A stretch of 37,951 nt of DNA from Kiritimatiellia bacterium. GTDB taxonomy: Bacteria > Verrucomicrobiota > Kiritimatiellia > RFP12 > UBA1067. The notes under the pieces are model-generated. The model ran no database searches. It saw only the letters and a list, made by a program, of their open reading frames with translations, and had not been told where the DNA came from. Numbering within the stretch: position 1 is the first letter of the stretch; every line of letters begins with the position of its first letter. Below are positions 1,931 through 36,082 of this stretch, piece by piece. The translations under genes and the position numbers were made by a program. The stretch spans positions 1 through 37,951 of the forward strand of contig JAFWKK010000010.1 of assembly GCA_017514235.1 (NCBI GenBank), in the 5' to 3' direction.

Positions 1931-1959
1931 TTGCCCGTTTCGCCCATTTAGGGTATAAT
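1931..1959 (+). promoter_or_regulatory. Promoter of the gspE/pilB-like gene, predicted leaderless
   Basis: TTGCCC (1931-1936), a 17-nt spacer and TATAAT (1954-1959) form a good sigma-70 type promoter. The -10 box ends 8 nt before ATG 1968, so transcription should begin at or next to the start codon. There is no Shine-Dalgarno sequence. Confidence 0.65.
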
Positions 1960-1967
1960 ACACCCCA

Positions 1968-3650
1968 ATGACCAGTAACGACGAATATGTCATTCAGCTC
2001 CTTGTGGAGCGTGGATACCTGACCTCCGAGCAGGTCGAGGCGGCGGCGCAGTCCATGAAGGCCGAGAACGAGACGACGCTCGACGTACTCGTGTCCGGCG
2101 GCACGATCGGCGAGGACGAGGTTCTCGGCACGATCGCCGACCAGTTCGGCCTTAAGTACTGTCACATAAACGCCGACGCGATCAGCCCGGAGGCGACGCA
2201 GGCGATTTCTGCCGACATCGCGAAGAAGTACGGCGTGGTGCCGGTGGTGGCGAGCGAGGATTCCGTCACCGTGGCGCTCTCGGACCCGATGGGCTACGAT
2301 GCGATCGACTCGCTGCGCTACGTGCTGCACGGGCGCGACGTCGAGGCGGTGCTTGCGCCGCTCGAGGAAGTTCGCACCGCAATGGCGAAGCTTTACCCGA
2401 CGGGCGAGGATGCGGAGGTGTCGACGCGCGACGAGGAGGGGCTTGACGGCGGAGACGCCGCGGAGGGCGACGACAGCGCCGTCATCAAGCTCGCCAACAT
2501 GATCTTGACGACGGCGATCAAGATGAAGGCGTCCGATATTCACATCGAGCCGATGGAGAAGGAGTTCCGCGTCAGGTACCGCATCGATGGCGCGCTCCGC
2601 AAGATGGACTCTCCGCCGAAGCGCCTTCAGAGCGCGATCATATCCCGCTTCAAGATCATGTCGAAGATGAAGATCTCGGAGAAGCGCATACCGCAGGACG
2701 GCCGCATCCAGATCTCCGTCGGCAACAAGGACCTGGACCTTCGCGTCTCTTCGGTGCCCACGAACCACGGCGAATCGATCGTAATGCGAATCCTCGACAA
2801 GTCGAACCTGTCGCTCGGCCTGCCGCAGCTCGGCTTCCTCTCCGACGACCAGACGACGTTCGAGCACCTCATCAAGCTGCCTGACGGCGTCGTGCTCGTG
2901 ACGGGGCCGACAGGGTCCGGCAAGACCACTACGCTTTACGCCTGCCTCGGGCAGATCAACACGCCCGACAAGAAGCTCATCACGGTCGAAGACCCGGTCG
3001 AATACCAGATGAGCGGCATCAACCAGGTTCAGGTGAACAAGGACGTGGGGCTCGACTTCTCAGCCGCCCTCCGCTCGATCCTCCGCCAGGCGCCGAACAT
3101 CGTGATGATCGGCGAGATCCGTGACGCCGAGACTGCCGACATCGCCATGGAGGCGGCCCTCACCGGCCACTTGGTGTTCTCGACCCTGCACACGAACGAC
3201 GCTCCGTCGGCGGTGACCCGTCTCCTCGACATCGGCGTGAAGCCGTTCCTCGTCGCATCGGCGCTCCGCGCAGCGATGGCACAGCGTCTCGTCAGGGCGA
3301 TCTGCGAGAAGTGCAAGGAGGCCTATACGCCGTCCGACCGCGAACTCAAGATGCTGGGCGGGCTCGCCAAGGGCACGAACGCGACGCTTCCGGACCACAT
3401 GTACCACGGCACGGGATGCGATGTCTGCGGCAAGACCGGCTACAAGGGACGCAAGGGCATTTTCGAGATATTCAAGGTTGACGACACTATACAGCGTCTC
3501 ATCTTCGACCATGCCCCGGCGACGCTCCTCAGGCAGCGCGCCCGCGAGCTTGGCATGCGCACGCTCCGCGAGGACGGCATGCTGAAGGTGGCCAGCGGCA
3601 TGACGAGCCTGCAGGAGGTCTTGCGCGTCACGATGGGCGACGCCGACTGA
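1968..3650 (+). CDS. GspE/PilB-family secretion or pilus assembly ATPase
   Basis: Cytoplasmic hexameric ATPase of 560 residues that would power type II secretion or type IV pilus-like assembly. The N-terminal GspE_N domain covers about residues 1-145, followed by an acidic linker at 147-170. Walker A is GPTGSGKTT at 313-321. The Walker B/Asp-box region IVMIGEIRDAE is at 378-388, followed by the His box STLHTND. The tetracysteine zinc site has Cys446, Cys449, Cys484 and Cys487 (CEKC and CDVC). Full length and all motifs are intact. No other secretion or pilus genes are adjacent, although a pilin-like protein is encoded at 34.1 kb. The start follows a promoter by 8 nt with no ribosome site, so leaderless translation is likely. 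GspE and PilB cannot be separated from sequence alone. Confidence 0.92.
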   Translation: MTSNDEYVIQLLVERGYLTSEQVEAAAQSMKAENETTLDVLVSGGTIGEDEVLGTIADQFGLKYCHINADAISPEATQAISADIAKKYGVVPVVASEDSVTVALSDPMGYDAIDSLRYVLHGRDVEAVLAPLEEVRTAMAKLYPTGEDAEVSTRDEEGLDGGDAAEGDDSAVIKLANMILTTAIKMKASDIHIEPMEKEFRVRYRIDGALRKMDSPPKRLQSAIISRFKIMSKMKISEKRIPQDGRIQISVGNKDLDLRVSSVPTNHGESIVMRILDKSNLSLGLPQLGFLSDDQTTFEHLIKLPDGVVLVTGPTGSGKTTTLYACLGQINTPDKKLITVEDPVEYQMSGINQVQVNKDVGLDFSAALRSILRQAPNIVMIGEIRDAETADIAMEAALTGHLVFSTLHTNDAPSAVTRLLDIGVKPFLVASALRAAMAQRLVRAICEKCKEAYTPSDRELKMLGGLAKGTNATLPDHMYHGTGCDVCGKTGYKGRKGIFEIFKVDDTIQRLIFDHAPATLLRQRARELGMRTLREDGMLKVASGMTSLQEVLRVTMGDAD

Positions 3651-8832: not shown

Positions 8833-9783
8833 ATGATGACCATTTACAGGTGGGAAAACGGCGGCCTGAGGGAGACGTCGGAGTTCGCACCCTCCTGCTG
8901 GATCAACCTCGTAGAGCCGTCGACGACCGAGCTTGAGGCCGTCCTTTCGTATTCCGGCGTTCCGCGAGACTTCCTTACCGACCCGCTTGACGCCGGAGAA
9001 CGTCCGCGCTTCGACTGGGAGGACGACTCCAACCTCCTCATCGTCCACGTGCCGATGCAGATACCGCCCGAAGAGGACGACGATGCCGTGCCGTACCGCA
9101 CGATCCCTCTCGGAATCATCTTCCTCAGCCAGACGGTGATTACGGTGTGCAGCGCACGGACGCAGGTGACCACCGCGTTCCTCGACCAGATCCGTCGCGT
9201 CTGCCCGCCAAGCGACAAGTACCGCTTCGCGTTTCGCCTGCTGTGGCACGCTGGAGTGCTCTTCCTGCGCTACATAAACGACATACACTCGCGCACGACG
9301 GCGCTGGAAGACGAGCTGCACAAGTCCATCTCGAACGAGGTCATACTCAGGCTCTTTCAGATAGAGAAGACTCTCGTATACTTCACCACGAGCCTGAAGG
9401 CCGACACGATCGCGCTCGCCCGCGCGAACACAGCCAGGCAGCTGACGCTGTCTGAGGACGACCGTGACTTCCTCGACGACGCGCTCGTCGAGTACCAGCA
9501 GGCGCTGGAGACGGCCACCATTCACGCGAACATCTTGAACGGCACCCTCGACACGTTCGCCTCGCTCATCAACAACAACTTGAACAACGTGATGAAGTAC
9601 CTGACCGCGGCGACGATTCTTCTCGCGGTGCCGACGCTCATCGCGTCCGTCTACGGCATGAACATCGGCCTCCCGTTCCAGAGCCATCAGAACGCCTTTG
9701 CGATCGTGATGGGGCTTTCCGGTCTCCTTGCCGCTGCGATCGGTGCGCTCTTCATATTCCTTTCGCGCAAGCGCGTGTTTTAA
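8833..9783 (+). CDS. corA: CorA-family magnesium/divalent cation transporter
   Basis: Inner-membrane pentameric channel subunit of 316 residues. A long cytoplasmic N-terminal domain (1-250) leads to two C-terminal transmembrane helices at about 257-275 and 288-310. They are joined by a loop holding the signature YGMN (GMN at 275-277) and ending in the basic tail SRKRVF. These are the defining features of CorA/MIT proteins. Whether it carries Mg, Co, Ni or Zn cannot be decided. ATG 8833 is chosen because the frame upstream overlaps pheS, and AAAGGAC lies about 13 nt upstream. The second ATG (8836) is also possible. Confidence 0.88.
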   Translation: MMTIYRWENGGLRETSEFAPSCWINLVEPSTTELEAVLSYSGVPRDFLTDPLDAGERPRFDWEDDSNLLIVHVPMQIPPEEDDDAVPYRTIPLGIIFLSQTVITVCSARTQVTTAFLDQIRRVCPPSDKYRFAFRLLWHAGVLFLRYINDIHSRTTALEDELHKSISNEVILRLFQIEKTLVYFTTSLKADTIALARANTARQLTLSEDDRDFLDDALVEYQQALETATIHANILNGTLDTFASLINNNLNNVMKYLTAATILLAVPTLIASVYGMNIGLPFQSHQNAFAIVMGLSGLLAAAIGALFIFLSRKRVF

Positions 9784-11580: not shown

Positions 11581-11607
11581 CGCGCTGCGTCTCTGCCAGT
11601 CCTCTTT

Positions 11608-11616
11608 TGGTATAAT
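11608..11616 (+). promoter_or_regulatory. Extended -10 promoter of dnaB, predicted leaderless
   Basis: TGG then TATAAT (11611-11616), followed by TGGCGGC and ATG 11624. Only 7 nt separate the -10 box from the start codon. There is no Shine-Dalgarno sequence and no clear -35. Confidence 0.65.
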
Positions 11617-11623
11617 TGGCGGC

Positions 11624-13111
11624 ATGAGCGAACTGAAGACACCGCCTCACAACCTTGAGGCAGAGCGGGCCGTCCTGGGGTCGATTCTTCTTGACACTAC
11701 GGGCAGGAGCGACGGCCGCGTGATGGACGAGTGCCGGTCTCGCGGTGTTGTGCCGGAGACGTTTTACGATCCGGCGAACCGGGCCATTTTTACGGCGATG
11801 ATGGCTATGGGGGCGGCGTCGAAGCCTCTGGACGCCCTGGCTCTCATCGAGGAGCTGAGGCGCACAAACAGGCTTGAGGCCGTCGGCGGCGTCGGCTACA
11901 TACAGTCGCTCATAGACCAGGTTCCGACGACGGCACACGCCGAGCACTACATCGGAATCTTGCGCGGCAAGCATCTGCGTCGCATGATGATCGAGCGGGC
12001 TACTGACGTGGTGGCGCATTGCTTCGACGAGGGCGAGTATCCAGACGCGCAGGTCGTGCTTGGCGACGCCGAGAAGAACTTCCTTGAAATCGGCGGCTCG
12101 GCCAGCGCGACGATGCCGTGGTCCGCGGCGATCGACGAGAGCTTCAAGAGAATCGACCGCATGTTCGAGTCGGGCGGCCGGCTGATGGAGGGCCTGTCGA
12201 CCGGCTACAAGTACCTCGACGAGACGCTTCAGGGGCTGAAGCCAGGCGAAATGATCGTGATAGCGGCGCGTCCGTCGGTAGGCAAGACGTCGCTTGCGAT
12301 GAACATCGCCGAGAGCGTGGCGCTCGGCATGGACATGAACAACGTTCCGGTCAGGTACGACAACGGCAAGCGCCATCCCGTGGCGATCTTCTCGCTTGAG
12401 ATGCCGGTCGAGCAACTGACCAAGAGAATGCTCGCGGGGCGAGCCCGCATCAACATGTGGCGGCTCAACCGCAACCTCGTGCCGAAGAGCGAGAAGGAGA
12501 TGCTGACGGGCAGCCTCATGCAGGCGATGGGCGAGCTGAAGACGGCGCCGATATACGTTGACGACACGGCAAGCCTTGACGTCATGGATCTCCGCGCCCG
12601 CGCCCGCCGCCTGAAGAAGCGATACGGAATCGAGCTGGTCGTGATAGACTACCTTCAGCTCTGCACCTGCCGCGAAGGTTCGCGGCAAGGGCGCCAGATC
12701 GAGGTGTCGATGATCTCCCGGCAGATAAAGGCGATGGCGAAGGAACTGAAGATACCGGTGATAGTGCTCTCGCAGCTTTCCCGCGACAACGAGAAGCGCG
12801 GCGACAAGTTCGAGAGGCCTAAGCTCTCGGACCTGCGCGACTCAGGCGCGATCGAGCAGGACGCCGACGTCGTTTTCCTGCTGCGCCGTCCTTCTCGCAA
12901 TCCGAAGGACCCTGAGTCGCAGGACCAGACGCTTGCCTACGTGGACATCGCGAAGAACCGCAACGGAGAGACCGGCGACGTGAAGATGACCTTCGTGCGC
13001 GAATGGACGCGCTTCCTGGACCGCGAGCCGGAACACAAGGAAACCGAGAACTTCAGTTCGTCCGAACCTGTGCCGGAACAGGGCGAATTCGCACCGGACC
13101 CGATGTCGTAA
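11624..13111 (+). CDS. dnaB: Replicative DNA helicase DnaB
   Basis: Hexameric 5'-3' replicative helicase of 495 residues. The N-terminal domain begins with the typical PPHNLEAERAVLGSILLD (7-24). The RecA-like C-terminal domain has Walker A ARPSVGKTS at 215-223, IFSLEMP (255-261), the Walker B region VVIDYLQL, the LSQLSRDNEKR block and SDLRDSGAIEQDADVV with the arginine-finger area. Compared with common DnaB, a short extra stretch (about residues 237-250) sits before the HPVAIFSLEM strand. Translation appears leaderless: the -10 box ends 7 nt before ATG. Possible DnaA boxes lie just upstream, which would tie expression to replication control. Confidence 0.95.
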   Translation: MSELKTPPHNLEAERAVLGSILLDTTGRSDGRVMDECRSRGVVPETFYDPANRAIFTAMMAMGAASKPLDALALIEELRRTNRLEAVGGVGYIQSLIDQVPTTAHAEHYIGILRGKHLRRMMIERATDVVAHCFDEGEYPDAQVVLGDAEKNFLEIGGSASATMPWSAAIDESFKRIDRMFESGGRLMEGLSTGYKYLDETLQGLKPGEMIVIAARPSVGKTSLAMNIAESVALGMDMNNVPVRYDNGKRHPVAIFSLEMPVEQLTKRMLAGRARINMWRLNRNLVPKSEKEMLTGSLMQAMGELKTAPIYVDDTASLDVMDLRARARRLKKRYGIELVVIDYLQLCTCREGSRQGRQIEVSMISRQIKAMAKELKIPVIVLSQLSRDNEKRGDKFERPKLSDLRDSGAIEQDADVVFLLRRPSRNPKDPESQDQTLAYVDIAKNRNGETGDVKMTFVREWTRFLDREPEHKETENFSSSEPVPEQGEFAPDPMS

Positions 13112-14578: not shown

Positions 14579-14590
14579 GTGACCGTGCTT

Positions 14591-14599
14591 TGCTATACT
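14591..14599 (+). promoter_or_regulatory. Extended -10 promoter of the GH36-like gene, predicted leaderless
   Basis: TGC then TATACT (14594-14599), followed by GCGCGGC and ATG 14607, a 7-nt gap with no ribosome site. The -35 is TTTACG (14571-14576) at a 17-nt spacing. Confidence 0.6.
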
Positions 14600-14606
14600 G
14601 CGCGGC

Positions 14607-16613
14607 ATGAATGTCGTTTCTGCGATTCTTGCTGCCTCCATGTCACTTGGCGCAGGCTCTGAGGAGTCGGCTGGTTGCCGCGCCGATTGGGAAGGGGCCT
14701 GGCTGAAGGTTGGCAATGCGCTGTTCAGCCGCGAGTATGCCGTCAGCAACGGTGCATTGCACACCATCTCCTTCAAGTCTGCCGATGGTGTGGAATGGCA
14801 ACGGCAAGCGGCCTTGCCCATAGGCTGCCAGCCGCCGGTCCCAGGTTGCCGGCTGACGATATCGGCGGCGGCGGGACGGTGGAGCCCAGTCGGCACAGAG
14901 GGCCTGTGCGTGAAGGTGCTTGCCGATGGTCGCGAGACGGAGCTGTGGCTTTTCCCAGGCGTCCCTGGCGTAATCGCGAGGCGGGCGTGGACAGATGCGG
15001 TGAATCCAGTGCGCGACCGCGACCGCGACTTCAGGAACCTGTCGCAGGACGGCACGGTCCTTCGCAAGTGGCTCGACGAATGCGACTGCATCAGGTTCGG
15101 TCCGCAGCACATCAAGGCGACAAGCGTGGTCTGCATGGATCAGACCGACATCCGCGACAACCTGATGGACGTTGACGAACGTCTGCTGATGGCGTACGAC
15201 ACGCGTTTCACGCTGGCGGCGAGCGCACTGGACTGCCGCGACGTGCTGACTGGCGACGGGCTGGCGTTCATACGCCTTGCGCCGATGCCGTCAAGCAGGC
15301 CTGAGAAGGTCGAGGATTTCATTCTTGACGGGGCGCACCGTCGCGTTGCCTTGTTGGCGAACGGCTATCCGCTCGTCGAGCTGGTCTATCGCGGCGGCGA
15401 TGCCGGGCGGCAACGCGCCGTGGTTGCGTTCCAGCGGGCGATCAGGCCGTACCTGGCGGAGCGCGACGGCATACTCCTTTCCAACACGTGGGGCGGCGGC
15501 AACCGCGATACGCGCATCAACCAGGCGTTTCTGCTGAAGGAAATAGAGGCAGGCGCGAAGATCGGCGTAGACGTCATCCAGATCGACGACGGCTGGGAGC
15601 AAGGGCGTACATCGAATTCGGAGCGCAAGGCGCTTGCCGGCAAGGAAAAGGTATGGAACGGCTACTGGGCCACGGATCCCGACTTCTGGAAAGAGGATCG
15701 CGAGCGTTTCCCGGACGGTCTCGGCTTCCTCGTGAAAAAGGCCGCCGAGAAGGGCATGCGCTTCGGACTGTGGTTCGGTCCGGATTCGAGCGATGACGCC
15801 GTAAACTGGAAACGGGACGCGGAATGCTTGCTCGACTACCACCGCCGGCTTGGCATCGATTACTTCAAGCTGGATTCGATGAAGCTCTTTACGCCGCTTG
15901 CCCTGAAACGCAACCGCATGATGTTCGACCTCATGCAGGAGGCGTCCGGAGGAGCGATGGTGTTCGACCTTGACTGCACGGCGGAGATACGTCCGGGCTT
16001 TCTCGGCCTCCTTGATGTGGGGCCGATGTTCGTGGAGAACCGCTACACGCTTCAGCCCGTGTACTGGCCGCACCACACGCTCAAGAACCTCTGGGACCTT
16101 TCGCATCTCATCGACCCGGTGCGCCTTCGCATGGAGTTCAACAACCCCGACACCAACCACGACAAGTACGGCGGCAGTCCGCTGTGTCACGGCAATTACC
16201 GTCCTGATGCGCTCTTCGCCACGGTCATGGCGGCCTCGCCTCTTGCATGGATGGAGCTTTCGGACGTCTCGGATAAGTCGATCGCAGCCCTGGCTCCGCT
16301 AGTGAGAACGTGGAAGGCGGAGCGGGCGCGCTGGCATGGCGGCGTGATCCATCCCGTCGGCAGCAGGCCTGACGGCGTGGCGTGGACGGGGTTCGTCTCC
16401 GAGGCGGCGGACGGGCGCGGCGGTTACGCGCTGCTGTTCCGCGAACTGAGCGCCGTTGATAGCTTTTCGCTCGACCTTGCGCCGATATTCGGGGAACGCC
16501 CGCTTTCCGTCAACGGGGTGATTGGTGGACGCGGCAAGGCGTCGCTCGACGGCACTCGCCTTGTGGTGTCCGTCCCGGAGAAGCTCGACTTCGTTTGGGT
16601 GAAGTTCGAGTGA
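14607..16613 (+). CDS. GH36-like glycosidase (alpha-galactosidase type), probably exported
   Basis: Predicted glycoside hydrolase of 668 residues. A beta-sandwich N-terminal region (about 25-280) leads into a TIM barrel. The clan-D motif VIQIDDGWEQ is at 323-332. GMRFGLWFGP follows, and then IDYFKLDSMK, where Asp423 matches the usual nucleophile position. The expected acid/base region reads VFDLDCTAEIRPGF and MFVENRY instead of a typical GH36 block, so substrate and mechanism may differ. The C-terminal ~90 residues form a small beta domain. The first ~17 residues (MNVVSAILAASMSLGAG) make a short, weak signal peptide. The promoter sits 7 nt from ATG with no Shine-Dalgarno site. The regulator gene converges on it with a 13-nt gap. 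Confidence 0.8.
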   Translation: MNVVSAILAASMSLGAGSEESAGCRADWEGAWLKVGNALFSREYAVSNGALHTISFKSADGVEWQRQAALPIGCQPPVPGCRLTISAAAGRWSPVGTEGLCVKVLADGRETELWLFPGVPGVIARRAWTDAVNPVRDRDRDFRNLSQDGTVLRKWLDECDCIRFGPQHIKATSVVCMDQTDIRDNLMDVDERLLMAYDTRFTLAASALDCRDVLTGDGLAFIRLAPMPSSRPEKVEDFILDGAHRRVALLANGYPLVELVYRGGDAGRQRAVVAFQRAIRPYLAERDGILLSNTWGGGNRDTRINQAFLLKEIEAGAKIGVDVIQIDDGWEQGRTSNSERKALAGKEKVWNGYWATDPDFWKEDRERFPDGLGFLVKKAAEKGMRFGLWFGPDSSDDAVNWKRDAECLLDYHRRLGIDYFKLDSMKLFTPLALKRNRMMFDLMQEASGGAMVFDLDCTAEIRPGFLGLLDVGPMFVENRYTLQPVYWPHHTLKNLWDLSHLIDPVRLRMEFNNPDTNHDKYGGSPLCHGNYRPDALFATVMAASPLAWMELSDVSDKSIAALAPLVRTWKAERARWHGGVIHPVGSRPDGVAWTGFVSEAADGRGGYALLFRELSAVDSFSLDLAPIFGERPLSVNGVIGGRGKASLDGTRLVVSVPEKLDFVWVKFE

Positions 16614-17862: not shown

Positions 17863-19020
17863 CTACACCATTCGGAATGTCCGGAAATTTCTGGCGCTGA
17901 CCCCGTTTGAGAAATCCATGTCAGCGCCGTCATAGACGACGGTGGGCGATACGGCGCGCGGCGTTTCCGCGGCAAAGCGCATTGGCCCGGCGGAGAAATC
18001 CGAATGCCATGTCATCGATGACTTGATTTCGATCGGTCGTGTCTCTCCGCCTGCGGAGGCGACGAGATCGATCTCAAACCCCGATCCGGTTCGCAGGAAC
18101 GAAAGCCTCGGCTCCTTTCCGAGATTCGCCCTCTGTTTCAGGGCGTCGGCAACCACCATGTTCTCGAACAGATTCCCGCGAAGCGGATCCCTTGCCACCT
18201 GCGCGGGCGCTTCAAGCCCGAGCAGATAGACGGCCAGTCCCACTTCGGTAAAGTACACCTTTGGCGACTTTACGACGCGCTTGCTGATGTTTGACGTGCA
18301 TGGCGGAAGCCGGAACACGAGGAACGACGATTCAAGTATCGCAAGCCATTCGCCCAGCGTCGTGGAGGAAACGCCCACCTCGCCCGCAAGGGCGTGCAGA
18401 TTGACGATCTGCCCCACCCGTCCCGCCAGAAGGGTGACGAACTTCTCGAACAGTATCGTATTGCGGACATTGATGAGCTTACGGACATCCCTTTCAACAT
18501 ACGTTCTGAAGTAGTTCCGGTACCAGGCTGTCGGATCCAATTCCGGAATGCGCCACAGTTCAGGCATGAAACCCCTGAAGATTAAGGAGTCCGTGTCCGA
18601 CTTGCGGGCTACGTCGCCGAGTTCCGGAATGGCGGGCGGATAGAGGTCGAGGATGGCCGTTCTGCCTGCCAGCGACTGTGAAACCGTTTCGGCGAGAAGG
18701 GGCTGATGGCTTCCTGTCAGGATGAATCGCCCCATGTCATGTCGCCGCTCGTCAACGAGAACCTGCACGGTCGAGGCAAGTTCCGGGACATGCTGAATCT
18801 CGTCAAGAACCACCGGTGGCTGATGTCTGGCAAAAAAAGCTTTGGCGTCCATTGCGGCAAGATCGCGTGATTCGCGGTCTTCAAGGTTCACGTATTCGTA
18901 TTCCGGAAAGACATCACGCACGACAGTCGTCTTGCCAGACTGACGCGGCCCGAATATGGTAACGACGGGATACTGATGCGCCATGTCTCGCATCAAAGAA
19001 GATAGGTGTCGTTTAATCAT
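17863..19020 (-). CDS. DUF4143-type AAA ATPase
   Basis: Archaeal/bacterial-type P-loop ATPase with a C-terminal DUF4143 domain, 385 residues from ATG 19020. Walker A is GPRQSGKTT at 24-32, Walker B is PPVVLDEIQHVPEL, and ILTGSHQPLL follows as sensor 1. The DUF4143 part includes YVERDVRKLINVRN and a nuclease-like fold end, FEIDLVASAGGETRPIEIKSS, with an E/D-x-D and E-x-K pattern. Such proteins are common in mobile or defence-like islands, but their role is unknown. The frame extends six codons further to 19038; ATG 19020 is preferred because a strong promoter ends 6 nt before it. Confidence 0.82.
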   Translation of the reverse strand: MIKRHLSSLMRDMAHQYPVVTIFGPRQSGKTTVVRDVFPEYEYVNLEDRESRDLAAMDAKAFFARHQPPVVLDEIQHVPELASTVQVLVDERRHDMGRFILTGSHQPLLAETVSQSLAGRTAILDLYPPAIPELGDVARKSDTDSLIFRGFMPELWRIPELDPTAWYRNYFRTYVERDVRKLINVRNTILFEKFVTLLAGRVGQIVNLHALAGEVGVSSTTLGEWLAILESSFLVFRLPPCTSNISKRVVKSPKVYFTEVGLAVYLLGLEAPAQVARDPLRGNLFENMVVADALKQRANLGKEPRLSFLRTGSGFEIDLVASAGGETRPIEIKSSMTWHSDFSAGPMRFAAETPRAVSPTVVYDGADMDFSNGVSARNFRTFRMV

Positions 19021-19026
19021 GCAGAC

Positions 19027-19056
19027 ATTGTACCACAATCAGGATGCAAATTTCAA
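19027..19056 (-). promoter_or_regulatory. Promoter of the DUF4143 ATPase, predicted leaderless
   Basis: On the minus strand: TTGAAA (19056-19051), an 18-nt spacer ending TGG, and TACAAT (19032-19027), then GTCTGC and ATG 19020. The gap is 6 nt with no Shine-Dalgarno sequence. Confidence 0.65.
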
Positions 19057-23369: not shown

Positions 23370-23398
23370 TGGTTCTTGTTCCTCAGTTTTGATATGAT
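23369..23398 (+). promoter_or_regulatory. Promoter before a short ORF and the first MBL gene
   Basis: TTGGTT (23369-23374), an 18-nt spacer ending TGA, and TATGAT (23393-23398). It is followed by CTGCGGC and an ATG at 23406, the same leaderless geometry as dnaB and the GH36-like gene. Confidence 0.5.
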
Positions 23399-23405
23399 CT
23401 GCGGC

Positions 23406-23462
23406 ATGAAAACAGACATGGCGGTAAAGGCAGACAGCTGTCCGGTTGCCGATGATGCGTAG
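23406..23462 (+). CDS. Possible leaderless short ORF (18 residues) upstream of the MBL gene
   Basis: MKTDMAVKADSCPVADDA, then TAG. Its ATG lies 7 nt after a -10 box within GCGGC-ATG, exactly as at dnaB. It ends 12 nt before the MBL start region and could be a leader peptide coupled to that gene. There is no similarity evidence, and length alone cannot support it. Support rests on the promoter position only. Confidence 0.3.
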   Translation: MKTDMAVKADSCPVADDA

Positions 23463-32893: not shown

Positions 32894-32919
32894 CATCATT
32901 CTCGTTTTTGATGTATAAT
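32890..32919 (+). promoter_or_regulatory. Near-consensus sigma-70 promoter of pyrB
   Basis: TTGACA (32890-32895), an 18-nt spacer and TATAAT (32914-32919). Both hexamers are perfect. The -35 overlaps the stop codon of the rhamnosidase gene. The start should be near 32926. Confidence 0.8.
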
Positions 32920-32931
32920 TCTTCCGTTGCT

Positions 32932-32957
32932 GCGGCGTGCATGCGGGCATGCGCCGC
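32932..32957 (+). promoter_or_regulatory. Strong hairpin in the pyrB leader
   Basis: GCGGC (32932-32936) pairs with GCCGC (32953-32957), and GCATGC (32939-32944) with GCATGC (32947-32952). The loop is tiny and there is one two-base bulge. It begins about 6 nt after the predicted start and ends 9 nt before GGAGG, so it may affect translation or transcript stability. Confidence 0.45.
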
Positions 32958-32977
32958 GAAACCTCGGAGGATTGATA

Positions 32978-34048
32978 ATGGCCAGGCTGACGGAGATCGG
33001 ATGGAACGAGTTTACCTCATTGTCGCTTGAATCGAAGCGGCCGTACTTGGCGCGGCAGGACGGGATGCCGTACCACACGCTCTTTGCGCAGCAGTTCGAC
33101 CGGTCGCTTCTTGAAAGGCTCTGCGCGCTGGCCAACCGCATACGCTTCATAAACAAGTCGAAGGAAGGTGCGCTTTACCTGAAGAGCGTGCTTGCGCACA
33201 AGCGAGCCATGCTCTACTTCTCGCAGCCCAGCTCCCGCACGTTCCTCTCTCACCTTGCCGCATGCCAGCTGCTAGGCATAACTACCGGATCGGTGCGCGA
33301 CGCGGCCACGTCGTCGGAGTTCAAGGGCGAGTCTAAGGAAGACTCCATTCGCACGTTCTCCAGCTATTTCGACATGATAATAATGCGCTCCCCCGAGCAG
33401 GGGCTGGCGGAGAAGATGGCGTGGGAGCTCTCCAACTCCTCGCGCCCGGTGCCCATACTGAACGCCGGTTCCGGCAAGGACCAGCATCCGACGCAGGCCC
33501 TGCTCGACGTGTATACGCTCATGCGCTCCTTCGAGAACAACGGCGGGGTGGACGGGCGCACGGTTGTGTTCTGCGGCGATCTGCTGCGCGGGCGTACCGT
33601 CCGTTCGCTCAGCTATCTTCTCACCGAGTTCTCCGGGGTGCGTCAGCTGTTTGTTGCGCCGGATGAGCTTCAGGTGCCGCCTGACGTGACGGCTATCCTT
33701 GACCGCAAGGGCGTCGCCTACGAGATATCAGGCGATCTCCGCGAATGCGTCGCAAGGGCCGATGCGGTGTACATGACGCGCATCCAGGACGAGTGGGACT
33801 CGTCCAAGGGTGCGTCCGCGAAGATCGACACGCACCGTTTCAAGTTCGGCGCGGAAGAGCTTGCGATTCTCAAGCCCGAGGGCGTGATAATGCACCCGTT
33901 GCCGCGGCGTGACGAGATAGCGACGTGCTGCGACCGCGATCCGCGAGCGATGTACTGGCGCCAGATGCGCAACGGCATGTGGATCCGCGCAGCGCTGATA
34001 GCCTCGACCTTCGGCTACGAGGAAGCGATAATGAACTGCGGCTATTGA
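32978..34048 (+). CDS. pyrB: Aspartate carbamoyltransferase catalytic chain
   Basis: Enzyme of 356 residues that condenses carbamoyl phosphate and aspartate in pyrimidine synthesis. The carbamoyl-phosphate loop reads QPSSRTFLSH (83-92), a variant of the STRTR motif with Phe in the last position. FKGESKEDS (115-123) carries the active-site Lys116. NAGSGKDQHPTQALLDVYT (162-180) and MHPLPRRDEI are classical ATCase blocks. The length exceeds E. coli PyrB (about 310) because of an N-terminal extension of about 40 residues. No regulatory-chain gene (pyrI) is adjacent. GGAGG (32966-32970) lies 7 nt before ATG 32978; the upstream in-frame start at 32927 falls inside the leader hairpin. Confidence 0.9.
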   Translation: MARLTEIGWNEFTSLSLESKRPYLARQDGMPYHTLFAQQFDRSLLERLCALANRIRFINKSKEGALYLKSVLAHKRAMLYFSQPSSRTFLSHLAACQLLGITTGSVRDAATSSEFKGESKEDSIRTFSSYFDMIIMRSPEQGLAEKMAWELSNSSRPVPILNAGSGKDQHPTQALLDVYTLMRSFENNGGVDGRTVVFCGDLLRGRTVRSLSYLLTEFSGVRQLFVAPDELQVPPDVTAILDRKGVAYEISGDLRECVARADAVYMTRIQDEWDSSKGASAKIDTHRFKFGAEELAILKPEGVIMHPLPRRDEIATCCDRDPRAMYWRQMRNGMWIRAALIASTFGYEEAIMNCGY

Positions 34049-34079: not shown

Positions 34080-34088
34080 TGCTACAAT
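34080..34088 (+). promoter_or_regulatory. Extended -10 promoter of the pilin-like gene, predicted leaderless
   Basis: TGC then TACAAT (34083-34088). ATGs follow at 34094 (5-nt gap) and 34097 (8-nt gap). No Shine-Dalgarno sequence is visible. Confidence 0.55.
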
Positions 34089-34093
34089 GCGTC

Positions 34094-36082
34094 ATGATGA
34101 AGCGAAGGTTGACAGAATGGCGCGGCGGCAGGCGAGGCGTGGTGCTGATCACGGTTCTCGTTATGACCGGAGTGTGCGCGATTGTCCTCGGGGGCGTGCT
34201 GGGCTATGTCTCCCACGCCACTCGGCTCACAGCGGTTCACGTGGGCAACAACGCCTGCCGCTTGGCGGCGCAGGGCGAGATCGAGCTCGCTAAATCCGCC
34301 ATCAACGATGCGTTCAACCGCGCGATAGCCCGCAGGGGCCGCATCGTCGGCGGCAGCATGGGCAGTTCGGTCTGCTCCTTCGACTGGTTTGGCGTAGGGG
34401 ACAATACGACTGTCTCGCGCACCATAGGTGCGCAAAACGGGCTTGGCACGGCTGTTACGCTCAGCGAATCGGCGGAGAACGGCGGCTGCACTGTGCGTGT
34501 GCGCGTCGGGCGCGTGCGGCACCCGGCGAACATGCAGTGGGCCGAGGTCACGCTCGTAGCCGAGGCGGTGCGGACTAATCCCGGCGGCACGGAGTCGCGG
34601 CAGGTCGTGGCTGAGACCGTTCGCTTCGCTCAGCAGCGCTCCAAGGTGTTCAACAACGCCTACTTCGTGAACAACTACGGTTGGTTCCAGGGGTCCGGTT
34701 GCACGGCCAACGGCGACGTGAGGGCGAACGGCGACATGTACCTCGACTCGCGCTGCAAGATCAACGGGCGCGTGTTCGCCGCCCGCAACGAGGAGCTGCG
34801 GGTTAACGGCGACGTTACGAATTATGGCACGATGGACAACTATGCAACCTATCGCAACTCCGTCTACGGCGTCAACGGCATGGCGCGTCCGCTCGCTTCC
34901 GACCCCATGACGGGCGACACGGTCGCAGGCGGCTACGACGCGCCGGTGAACGTCACTACGCAAGACAAGCAGGATCGCGTGCACGCCAACGAGGACCGTG
35001 AGACGGAGATGCCTTTCATCGGCGACCTTACGTCCGAGGACAGCGACTACCGCATGTGGATAGACGAGTTGAGGGAGTCCGATCCGTCGATGTGCAAGGT
35101 GACGCAGGGCGGAACAGTGCTGGTTGACAAGTACTACAATGGCGTTGGGCCGTCGGGCGACGCATCTTTGGCGGACAAGGGAGTGCTTGTGCTGGAGGGC
35201 ACGCAGGCCAATCCGATCGTCGTGAAGGGGCCGGTCGTGGTCGAGTCGGACGTGATCATCAAGGGGTATGTCACGGGGCAGGGCACCATCTATTCCGGGC
35301 GTAACGTGCATATCGTCGGCAACATCCAGTACGTGAACCCGCCGAGCTGGTCGGACAAGCGTCCGAATGCTTCGAATTCCTCGAAAGACCTGCTGGGGCT
35401 GATGGCGAAGGGCAACATAGTGATGGGCGACTACACCGATTCTAACTGGCTTAGCTCAATCCGCACCTACCTGACCAGCCAGCCCTACGTGCAGCGATAT
35501 GCCTGCGATTCCACGGACGACCTGATCGGCTACCCCGCGACGTTCGGCGGCAGTTACGCTGCGACGGAGAAAGTGACGGCGATGGGAACCGGCTCCGATG
35601 CCAGTCATGCCCCCGGCGGGTGGGATTCGTCCACCGGGCAGTTCGGCAAGGTGCGTGAGGTTGGGACGGGGCAGTACGTGCAACAGCAGGTGTACAACTC
35701 CTGGACGCGCAGGTACGAGTGGCAGAACGTGGAGGTCAAGGCGCCGGGCACGACTTACGACCGGAAGTATTACGAGTCGGTCGCCCTTGACAGCGAGATA
35801 TCCTCGCGTTGCTCGACGATCACGCGGATCGACGCGGTCCTCTACAACAACCACGGCATCTTCGGCCGGCTCGGCAAGTGCACCATCAACGGTTCGCTCG
35901 TCTGCCGCAACGAGGGCCTGCAGTACACGAGCAACCTTTACCTGAACTGGGACATGCGCCTCTACTCGGGGTCGGCTGAGTCTGTGGACAACGACGCCGT
36001 CGGGCTTGCAAGGGCGTCCGACAGTCCGCCGACGACGGTGGACTGGCGTCTGCTTCCGGTTGGCGTTGTCAATTTCGAGTGA
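34094..36082 (+). CDS. Large pilin-like, membrane-anchored beta-helix protein
   Basis: Protein of 662 residues with a prepilin/PilX-like N-terminus: a basic MMKRRLTEWRGGRRG followed by a hydrophobic helix VVLITVLVMTGVCAIVLGGVLG (16-37). Residues about 45-170 are helical then mixed. From about 190 on there are repeated short strands with turn Gly/Asn (TANGDVRANGDMYLDSRCKINGRVF; VVKGPVVVESDVIIKGYV), resembling a bactofilin-like or polymer-forming beta helix. It ends VGVVNFE. It could be a minor pseudopilin or a PilX/DUF4900-type surface protein working with the GspE/PilB ATPase at 2.0 kb. No prepilin cleavage motif G-FxxxE is present in standard form. The start is set at the first ATG after the -10 box, with ATG 34097 equally possible. 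Confidence 0.65.
   Translation: MMKRRLTEWRGGRRGVVLITVLVMTGVCAIVLGGVLGYVSHATRLTAVHVGNNACRLAAQGEIELAKSAINDAFNRAIARRGRIVGGSMGSSVCSFDWFGVGDNTTVSRTIGAQNGLGTAVTLSESAENGGCTVRVRVGRVRHPANMQWAEVTLVAEAVRTNPGGTESRQVVAETVRFAQQRSKVFNNAYFVNNYGWFQGSGCTANGDVRANGDMYLDSRCKINGRVFAARNEELRVNGDVTNYGTMDNYATYRNSVYGVNGMARPLASDPMTGDTVAGGYDAPVNVTTQDKQDRVHANEDRETEMPFIGDLTSEDSDYRMWIDELRESDPSMCKVTQGGTVLVDKYYNGVGPSGDASLADKGVLVLEGTQANPIVVKGPVVVESDVIIKGYVTGQGTIYSGRNVHIVGNIQYVNPPSWSDKRPNASNSSKDLLGLMAKGNIVMGDYTDSNWLSSIRTYLTSQPYVQRYACDSTDDLIGYPATFGGSYAATEKVTAMGTGSDASHAPGGWDSSTGQFGKVREVGTGQYVQQQVYNSWTRRYEWQNVEVKAPGTTYDRKYYESVALDSEISSRCSTITRIDAVLYNNHGIFGRLGKCTINGSLVCRNEGLQYTSNLYLNWDMRLYSGSAESVDNDAVGLARASDSPPTTVDWRLLPVGVVNFE

Follow-up and report, generated by a model that had tools for sequence, protein, structure and literature searches.

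Extended -10 promoters next to start codons point to leaderless genes beside Shine-Dalgarno genes in part of the Kiritimatiellia

About 7-9% of the called genes of a Kiritimatiellia bacterium, counting perfect and near-perfect boxes only, carry a -10 box a few nucleotides upstream of their start codon. The motif, its spacing, its gene context and its conservation, as well as its coexistence with Shine-Dalgarno (SD) sites at other genes, were observed in silico, and from these observations on the sequence we consider it very likely that extended -10 promoters set the start of transcription of these genes at or near the AUG. The resulting mRNAs would be leaderless, leadered genes with SD sites would coexist with them, and the distance between promoter and AUG would decide the mode of initiation.

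Results

-10 boxes next to start codons in the window

The window, i.e. the whole stretch of DNA that was analysed, comprises 37,951 nt of contig JAFWKK010000010.1 of a Kiritimatiellia bacterium (GCA_017514235.1; forward strand, positions 1 to 37,951). The original prediction had claimed six -10 boxes that end 5-8 nt before an ATG, and all six could be read directly in the sequence (Table 1). The TG of an extended -10 element is present three and two bases before the hexamer at five of the six sites, the gene encoding the gspE/pilB-like ATPase being the exception. Profile searches of the window ORFs identified DnaB (Pfam DnaB_C, 1.1e-88; TIGR00665 above its cut-off). For the gspE/pilB-like ATPase, the NCBIfam PilB and GspE models score just below their cut-offs, and the pseudopilin-like protein, the N-terminus of which was also inspected, is GspK-like according to NF037980 with a weak score (4.3e-05) that is far below the cut-off of the model. 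The 18-codon ORF may be a leaderless leader ORF encoding a leader peptide, or may have arisen by chance.

Table 1 Predicted -10 boxes and the genes that they precede, in window positions.
Feature	Position	Strand	Remarks
dnaB extended -10 promoter TTTGGTATAAT	11606..11616	+	TG 11608-11609, TATAAT 11611-11616; direct reading
dnaB, replicative helicase, predicted leaderless	11624..13111	+	ATG 7 nt past TATAAT; signal-blind start identical
gspE/pilB-like gene, -10 box TATAAT	1954..1959	+	8 nt before ATG; without TG
gspE/pilB-like ATPase, predicted to have no leader or one of 1-2 nt	1968..3650	+	Pfam T2SSE 4.3e-136
GH36-like gene, extended -10 TTTGCTATACT	14589..14599	+	TATACT-7-ATG; direct reading
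GH36-like gene (Melibiase, weak match), predicted leaderless, spacer 7	14607..16613	+	Pfam PF02065 1.5e-08
DUF4143 ATPase, -10 box TACAAT with upstream TG (TGGTACAAT)	19027..19032	-	6 nt before ATG
DUF4143/AAA_14 ATPase, from promoter-adjacent ATG	17863..19020	-	signal-blind caller chose 18984, 12 codons downstream
pseudopilin-like gene, -10 box TACAAT with upstream TG (TGTGCTACAAT)	34083..34088	+	5 or 8 nt before adjacent ATGs (34094, 34097)
pseudopilin-like gene, predicted leaderless	34094..36082	+	signal-blind caller chose 34139, 15 codons downstream
short ORF, -10 box TATGAT with upstream TG	23393..23398	+	7 nt before ATG
18-codon ORF at predicted transcription start	23406..23462	+	ends 12 nt before ATG of MBL-like gene (23475)

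Two further observations were made in the window. At pyrB (32914-32978), a TATAAT is located 7 nt before a TTG (32927) and an SD-led ATG follows at 32978; this gene is possibly leadered, with a transcription start about 50 nt upstream of the ATG. A tRNA-Lys called by ARAGORN antisense inside the CorA gene (9012-9111, minus strand) is probably a false positive.

Genome-wide excess of the box-to-ATG spacing

The genome from which the window originates (3.96 Mb in 82 contigs, 92% complete) has its closest dnaB match among named genomes, at 97% identity, in a Kiritimatiellae bacterium from goat ileum, and many of the further dnaB matches derive from ruminant gut samples or are labelled Kiritimatiellae, Lentisphaerae or Verrucomicrobia. 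Throughout this genome, TATAAT-N7-ATG occurs 105 times compared to 5 times for the reversed control, i.e. about 20-fold more often, and TnTGnTATAAT occurs 465 times compared to a single reversed match. An ATG follows 6-9 nt after 180 of these extended motifs (39%), which was the case for none in the control. A sample was drawn that comprises the window and 40 stretches with a total length of 800 kb, roughly one fifth of the genome. In this sample, an ATG most often follows TATAAT after 6-9 nt (10, 21, 16 and 8 cases, respectively), compared to 3, 3, 0 and 5 cases at 16-19 nt.

As a safeguard against circularity, gene starts were called blind to such signals, based on codon usage alone, which resulted in 578 genes covering 91% of the bases. 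A perfect TATAAT is located 6-9 nt upstream of 36 of these starts, and a box with at least five of the six letters is located 5-9 nt upstream of 42 of them, compared to 14 of 5,383 internal in-frame ATGs, a contrast that partly reflects the base composition of coding versus upstream DNA. In the region 20-59 nt upstream of the same starts, the mean is 11 boxes per 5 nt, a figure that includes genuine leadered promoters, as opposed to the 42 at 5-9 nt; a second, broad set of boxes at 20-40 nt is consistent with promoters of ordinary leadered genes. The centre of the hexamer lies about 10-12 bp before the start codon, as in the TA-led genes described below, and its count exceeds the controls. The same pipeline yielded 7 of 122 starts in another genome of the same family (G282) and 1 of 143 in a genome of another family of the class (G139).

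Position of the start codons and conservation in relatives

TGnTATAAT accounts for 120 of the 175 TATAAT in the sample, and 51 of the 120 are followed after 6-10 nt by a called gene's start codon. It is conceivable, though quite unlikely, that the boxes are real promoters whose true start codons are located further downstream; the transcripts would then carry short leaders, and an ATG at 6-9 nt would be due to chance or misannotation. The starts of the DUF4143 ATPase and the pseudopilin-like gene, which the signal-blind caller placed further inside the genes (Table 1), would fit this possibility, as would the 14 of the 51 promoter-adjacent starts that differ from the signal-blind start. However, the other 37 are identical to it, an ATG is far more frequent at 6-9 nt than at shifted spacings, and the tblastn alignment of dnaB reaches residue 1 in many relatives, where the ATG is located.

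The start region of dnaB is kept at 79 of 80 loci in relatives, which are not mutually independent; the remaining locus (L071) was left out as it has no N-terminus. Of the 79, 38 have a box whose distance to an in-frame start is 4-9 nt, and all 38 harbor the TG, whereas 300 rounds of shuffling the 60 upstream nucleotides resulted in 1.7 boxes on average and in 6 at most. An upstream gene is found within 60 nt in 25 of the 41 relatives without a box, as expected inside an operon, and in none of the other 16; it is also found in 7 of the 38 relatives with a box. These 16 and 7 cases count against our explanation.

For gspE, a match was obtained in all 57 genomes of the family, and the best 30 loci, including that of the genome itself, were analysed. 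A box is located 3-14 nt upstream in 21 of these best 30, often at 8-12 nt, and an SD site takes its place in 5 of the 30, three of which belong to a genus with a weak leaderless signal (g154). Judging from the spacing of 7-14 nt in relatives, gspE appears to be a drifting case. At spacings of up to 14 nt, the transcripts would retain a leader of approximately 7 nt, which counts against our explanation, as do the 5 SD sites. The initiation mode of single genes thus seems to change.

Nature and gene context of the box

We aligned on the hexamer the 39 of the 42 leaderless sites with TATAAT or TATACT, dropping three with TAAAAT or TATCAT. Although the sites had not been selected for TG, the alignment revealed a T in 90%, the T and the G of the TG in 97% each, and a further G in 72%, i.e. 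TnTGG-TATAAT. In the sample, 97 of the 102 TnTGnTATAAT are located outside called genes despite the 91% coding share, and permuted motifs were found only 0-4 times. No general -35 element is apparent, since the information stays at or below 0.17 bits throughout the region between -40 and -10, counted from the hexamer, and a conserved -35 partner as a general feature was accordingly rejected. There is a minority trace of TTG: at offset -24 it is present in 16 of the 120 TGnTATAAT, compared to 0-5 at every other single offset, and a -35-like TTG at offset -23 or -24, which corresponds to a distance of 17-18 nt, accompanies 20 of the 120 (9 of the 51 leaderless and 11 of the 69 other sites). It is commoner where the TG is missing (14 of 55 TATAAT at -24 or -23), which would be the trade-off expected of sigma-70 promoters. 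In most cases, the box is an extended -10 element, and a -35-like TTG accompanies it only in a minority. The leaderless reading put forward in the original prediction gains support from the genome-wide spacing excess, and has to be amended with regard to the drifting gspE and to the extended form of the box, the TG of which had not been mentioned.

A fixed base before the ATG was also considered and rejected, since a C is found there in 15 of 21 sites at spacings of 6-7 nt, but only in 9 of 21 at 8-9 nt; at the shorter spacings it is suggestive of a CA initiator, in small numbers. The spacer after TATAAT often begins with an A followed by a C (45% and 51%, respectively, of the 51 leaderless sites of the sample), possibly a discriminator preference.

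With regard to gene context, boxes precede 13 of 70 divergent genes, 16 of 136 genes behind a same-strand gap of 30-100 nt, 6 of 95 behind a gap of at least 100 nt and 7 of 272 behind a gap of less than 30 nt, i.e. they are enriched at promoter-proximal genes and rare in the interior of tight operons. The share at gaps of at least 100 nt is below that at 30-100 nt, which counts against our explanation. A Pfam scan covered 48 of the 51 leaderless genes, the three that span stretch borders having been dropped, and resulted in matches to 100 families, none of them in more than two members, so that a mobile or repeated element carrying TATAAT-N7-ATG was rejected as the source. The first 25 of the 100 families include DnaB, gyrase A, MetRS, GatB and TrmD, and further an ATP synthase-type ATPase, two proteins with sigma-70 region 2 and two AraC-type regulators. 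Since the families are unrelated, the predicted leaderless set is general rather than a single regulon, and some of its genes are expected to be essential.

The position of the boxes could also suggest that transcription starts far upstream and that they represent an unusual ribosome-binding or mRNA-structure signal of the non-SD kind, as in the FCB group, instead of promoters. Boxes this near to the start are located in ribosome-binding territory, and A/T-rich non-SD signals exist in other bacteria according to the StartLink article (PMC9581028). We nevertheless regard this as very unlikely, because the motif is the full TnTGnTATAAT, is located outside genes, favours divergent and gap-preceded genes, is depleted in tight operons and is also found 20-60 nt upstream of SD-led genes.

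Coexistence with Shine-Dalgarno sites

Strict SD words precede 155 of the 578 signal-blind starts, with a peak at 6-9 nt. Moreover, a called start follows 11-120 nt downstream of a further 39 TGnTATAAT, and a strict SD word is present at 17 of these 39 genes, i.e. SD sites also occur downstream of the same type of promoter. 16S sequences could be recovered from three of 40 genomes of the genus, the genome of the window not being among them, and two of them extend to the 3' end, the third being a fragment that stops short of it. One of the two (L152) ends in GGATCACCTCCTTTCT, a canonical anti-SD sequence with CCTCC. The other (L151) departs from the normal sequence before the last approximately 60 bases and has no anti-SD tail; on the minus strand of this locus (genome G452), at about 1560-1500, the 16S runs into a spacer with a tRNA-like stretch, and the divergence may reflect faulty assembly or a genuine peculiarity. 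This missing tail counts against our explanation. Together, the normal anti-SD in one of two 16S tails and the SD sites at other genes lead us to conclude that two modes coexist, as had been proposed for the window; they support a standard SD system beside the predicted leaderless genes, short of full proof.

The individual genes for which strong SD sites had been claimed in the window were largely borne out: SD sites were seen for pta, DedA, pyrB and hipA, but thyX could not be confirmed, as no ThyX match was obtained among the subset of window ORFs that was scanned. The lack of SD sites at the boxed genes is partly trivial, because a -10 box 5-8 nt before the ATG occupies the space of the SD. 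Box and SD were found together at 0 of the 42 leaderless sites, and since both compete for the same bases, their mutual exclusion cannot serve as evidence.

Distribution within the class

We compared TATAAT-N6-9-ATG with TATAAT-N16-19-ATG in 346 genomes of the class, a comparison in which A/T-rich genomes give a high background and which detects perfect TATAAT and ATG only, so that leaderless genes with other boxes are missed. Lack of a genome-wide excess had been named beforehand as grounds for abandoning the prediction; the excess was found in all 62 genomes of the genus to which the window belongs (9,121 compared to 2,747, i.e. 3.3-fold), and the prediction therefore stands. All 16 genomes of a second genus (g2) likewise revealed an excess (2,113 compared to 571), as did genera g7, g153, g158, g160 and g162 of the same family and, outside of it, families f2 (16 of 17 genomes) and f63 (6 of 6) and genus g10 of family f4 (10 of 11). 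The excess is weak in genera g4, g154 and g159, and no significant excess was detected in g3, g5, g6, g152, g155-g157, g161 and g163 of the same family, in f3 and f62, and in the remainder of f4. No overall excess was revealed by the further 184 genomes of the class (6,587 compared to 7,489; 57 of the 184 in excess), the only nominal enrichment among them being that of family f20 (two genomes, 69 compared to 36). Within the class, the excess is thus limited to parts of one order, and most relatives lack it. That it merely reflects base composition or short intergenic gaps is extremely unlikely: intergenic DNA is A/T-richer than genes, so that any A/T motif will be enriched near starts, but reversed or permuted motifs occur only 0-5 times, equal counts at shifted spacings were looked for and were instead about threefold lower, and the class relative used as control genome yielded the single start mentioned above, which together rule out a composition artefact.

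The distribution of TnTGnTATAAT mostly matches this division. An ATG follows 6-9 nt after 33-49% of the motifs in eight rich genomes (that of the window, G000, as well as G253, G282, G479, G084, G385, G379 and G380), compared to 12 of 62 in G399 and 15 of 97 (control 6) in G259. A strict linkage between extended -10 elements and leaderless genes was rejected on two grounds. G025 and G089, which belong to another class of the same phylum (f40, g65), contain TnTGnTATAAT 64 and 75 times (compared to 8 and 6), but TATAAT-N7-ATG only 12 and 13 times (compared to 9 and 4 reversed), and in genus g10 of f4 the spacing excess (111 compared to 37) is found although TnTGnTATAAT is nearly absent (0-4 in the four genomes looked at). 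Two genomes of f34 (g54), G009 and G011, contain 93 and 76 TnTGnTATAAT (compared to 16 and 20) and 31 and 34 TATAAT-N7-ATG (compared to 12 and 15). Judged by these counts, leaderless use in G025, G089, G009 and G011 would be modest at most.

Discussion

In E. coli, transcription starts about 7 nt past the -10 hexamer, so that spacings of 6-9 nt would place the start on, or within about three nucleotides of, the A of the ATG. The boxes described here would accordingly act as promoters of the sigma-70 type, in most cases as extended -10 promoters (TnTGnTATAAT) and usually without a -35 element, from which RNA polymerase would start on or next to the start codon, so that the mRNAs would be leaderless; spacings of 9-10 nt could leave leaders of 2-4 nt. 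On the known leaderless route, 70S ribosomes or IF2-loaded subunits bind a 5'-terminal AUG. By analogy with this work in other bacteria, on which the ribosome route proposed here rests, a 70S ribosome, or a 30S subunit pre-loaded with initiator tRNA and IF2, would recognise the 5'-terminal AUG directly, the transcription start being deduced from the promoter position. The role of IF2 in leaderless initiation is described in PMC10783764. The same type of promoter located 20-60 nt upstream would give rise to ordinary leadered mRNAs, a good part of them with an SD site, and it is because near placement would result in leaderless and distant placement in leadered transcripts that we propose the promoter-AUG distance to decide the initiation mode. 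Operon-internal genes would use other signals.

Leaderless bacterial genes as such are a known kind, since they are described by Zheng et al. 2011 (PMC3160421), Zhong et al. 2025 (PMC12340547) and StartLink (PMC9581028), the latter summarising GeneMarkS-2 (Lomsadze 2018) predictions of leaderless transcription in 21.6% of bacterial species and for up to 40% of transcripts. In the open-licence literature we found no description of leaderless genes in Kiritimatiellia; in the parts of PMC10783764 consulted, Kiritimatiellae are named only in a table of anti-SD classes, and a search combining leaderless, Verrucomicrobia and SD yielded, beyond this article, only PMC3017554, which deals with Rhodobacter. 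The same literature yielded nothing on transcription start sites in Kiritimatiell-, on dRNA-seq in Verrucomicrobia or on leaderless genes and SD in metagenome-assembled genomes. Three points are new as far as the searched literature goes, namely the lineage, the strong conservation of the extended -10 form and a sharp division among sister families and genera.

One broad survey, that of Zheng et al., treats leaderless genes as remnants of the ancestral state (PMC3160421), whereas the state described here is nested in a class that mostly lacks it. It is possible, although we hold this with some doubt, that the state is derived: part of one Kiritimatiellia order would have adopted TnTGnTATAAT-N6-9-ATG, mostly without a -35 element, at no less than a third of the promoters that can be recognised in it, those of dnaB and gyrA among them, without giving up the SD mode, and some genera would lack the module or have lost it again. 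If so, near genera with and without the module would allow the drivers of gain and loss to be tested. If the leaderless reading is true, the patchy distribution among sister genera offers a natural setting in which to study under what conditions, and for what reasons, leaderless translation is gained or lost by bacteria. For this uncultured gut lineage, gene finding and start annotation would then require a leaderless model, and a promoter-start cassette of about 25 bp could serve in expression tools.

Among known systems, the closest resemblance is to the TA-led genes that Zheng et al. defined over 953 bacterial genomes, in which a TANNNT or -10-like box is likewise located about 10-12 bp before the start, beside SD-led genes (PMC3160421). 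Their survey reports 19.2% leaderless genes in Actinobacteria and 39.4% in Deinococcus-Thermus, and its main text does not contain the terms Verrucomicrobia and Lentisphaerae. In Deinococcus-Thermus, according to Zhong et al., a -10 element a few bp before the ORF acts as a promoter without a -35 element, which enhances it, and produces leaderless mRNA beside genes with ribosome-binding sites, as demonstrated there by experiment and deduced here from DNA (PMC12340547). The element there is TANNNT at about 30% of ORFs, compared to mostly TnTGnTATAAT at the 7-9% of called genes obtained here with strict criteria, and neither 'Extended' nor 'Kiritimatiell' appears in the main text of that article. 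The level of about 30% is not reached by the 42 of 578 starts with near-perfect boxes or the 51 genes with TGnTATAAT, counts that leave weaker boxes aside. In the extended -10 promoters of sigma-70 and sigma-A in E. coli and Bacillus, a TG is located one base upstream of TATAAT and a T two bases before the TG, and the -35 element is usually missing. The Kiritimatiellia motif matches these promoters in the TG, the T and the missing -35 element; what sets it apart is that 120 of 175 TATAAT are of this form and that 39% of the TnTGnTATAAT in the genome abut an ATG.
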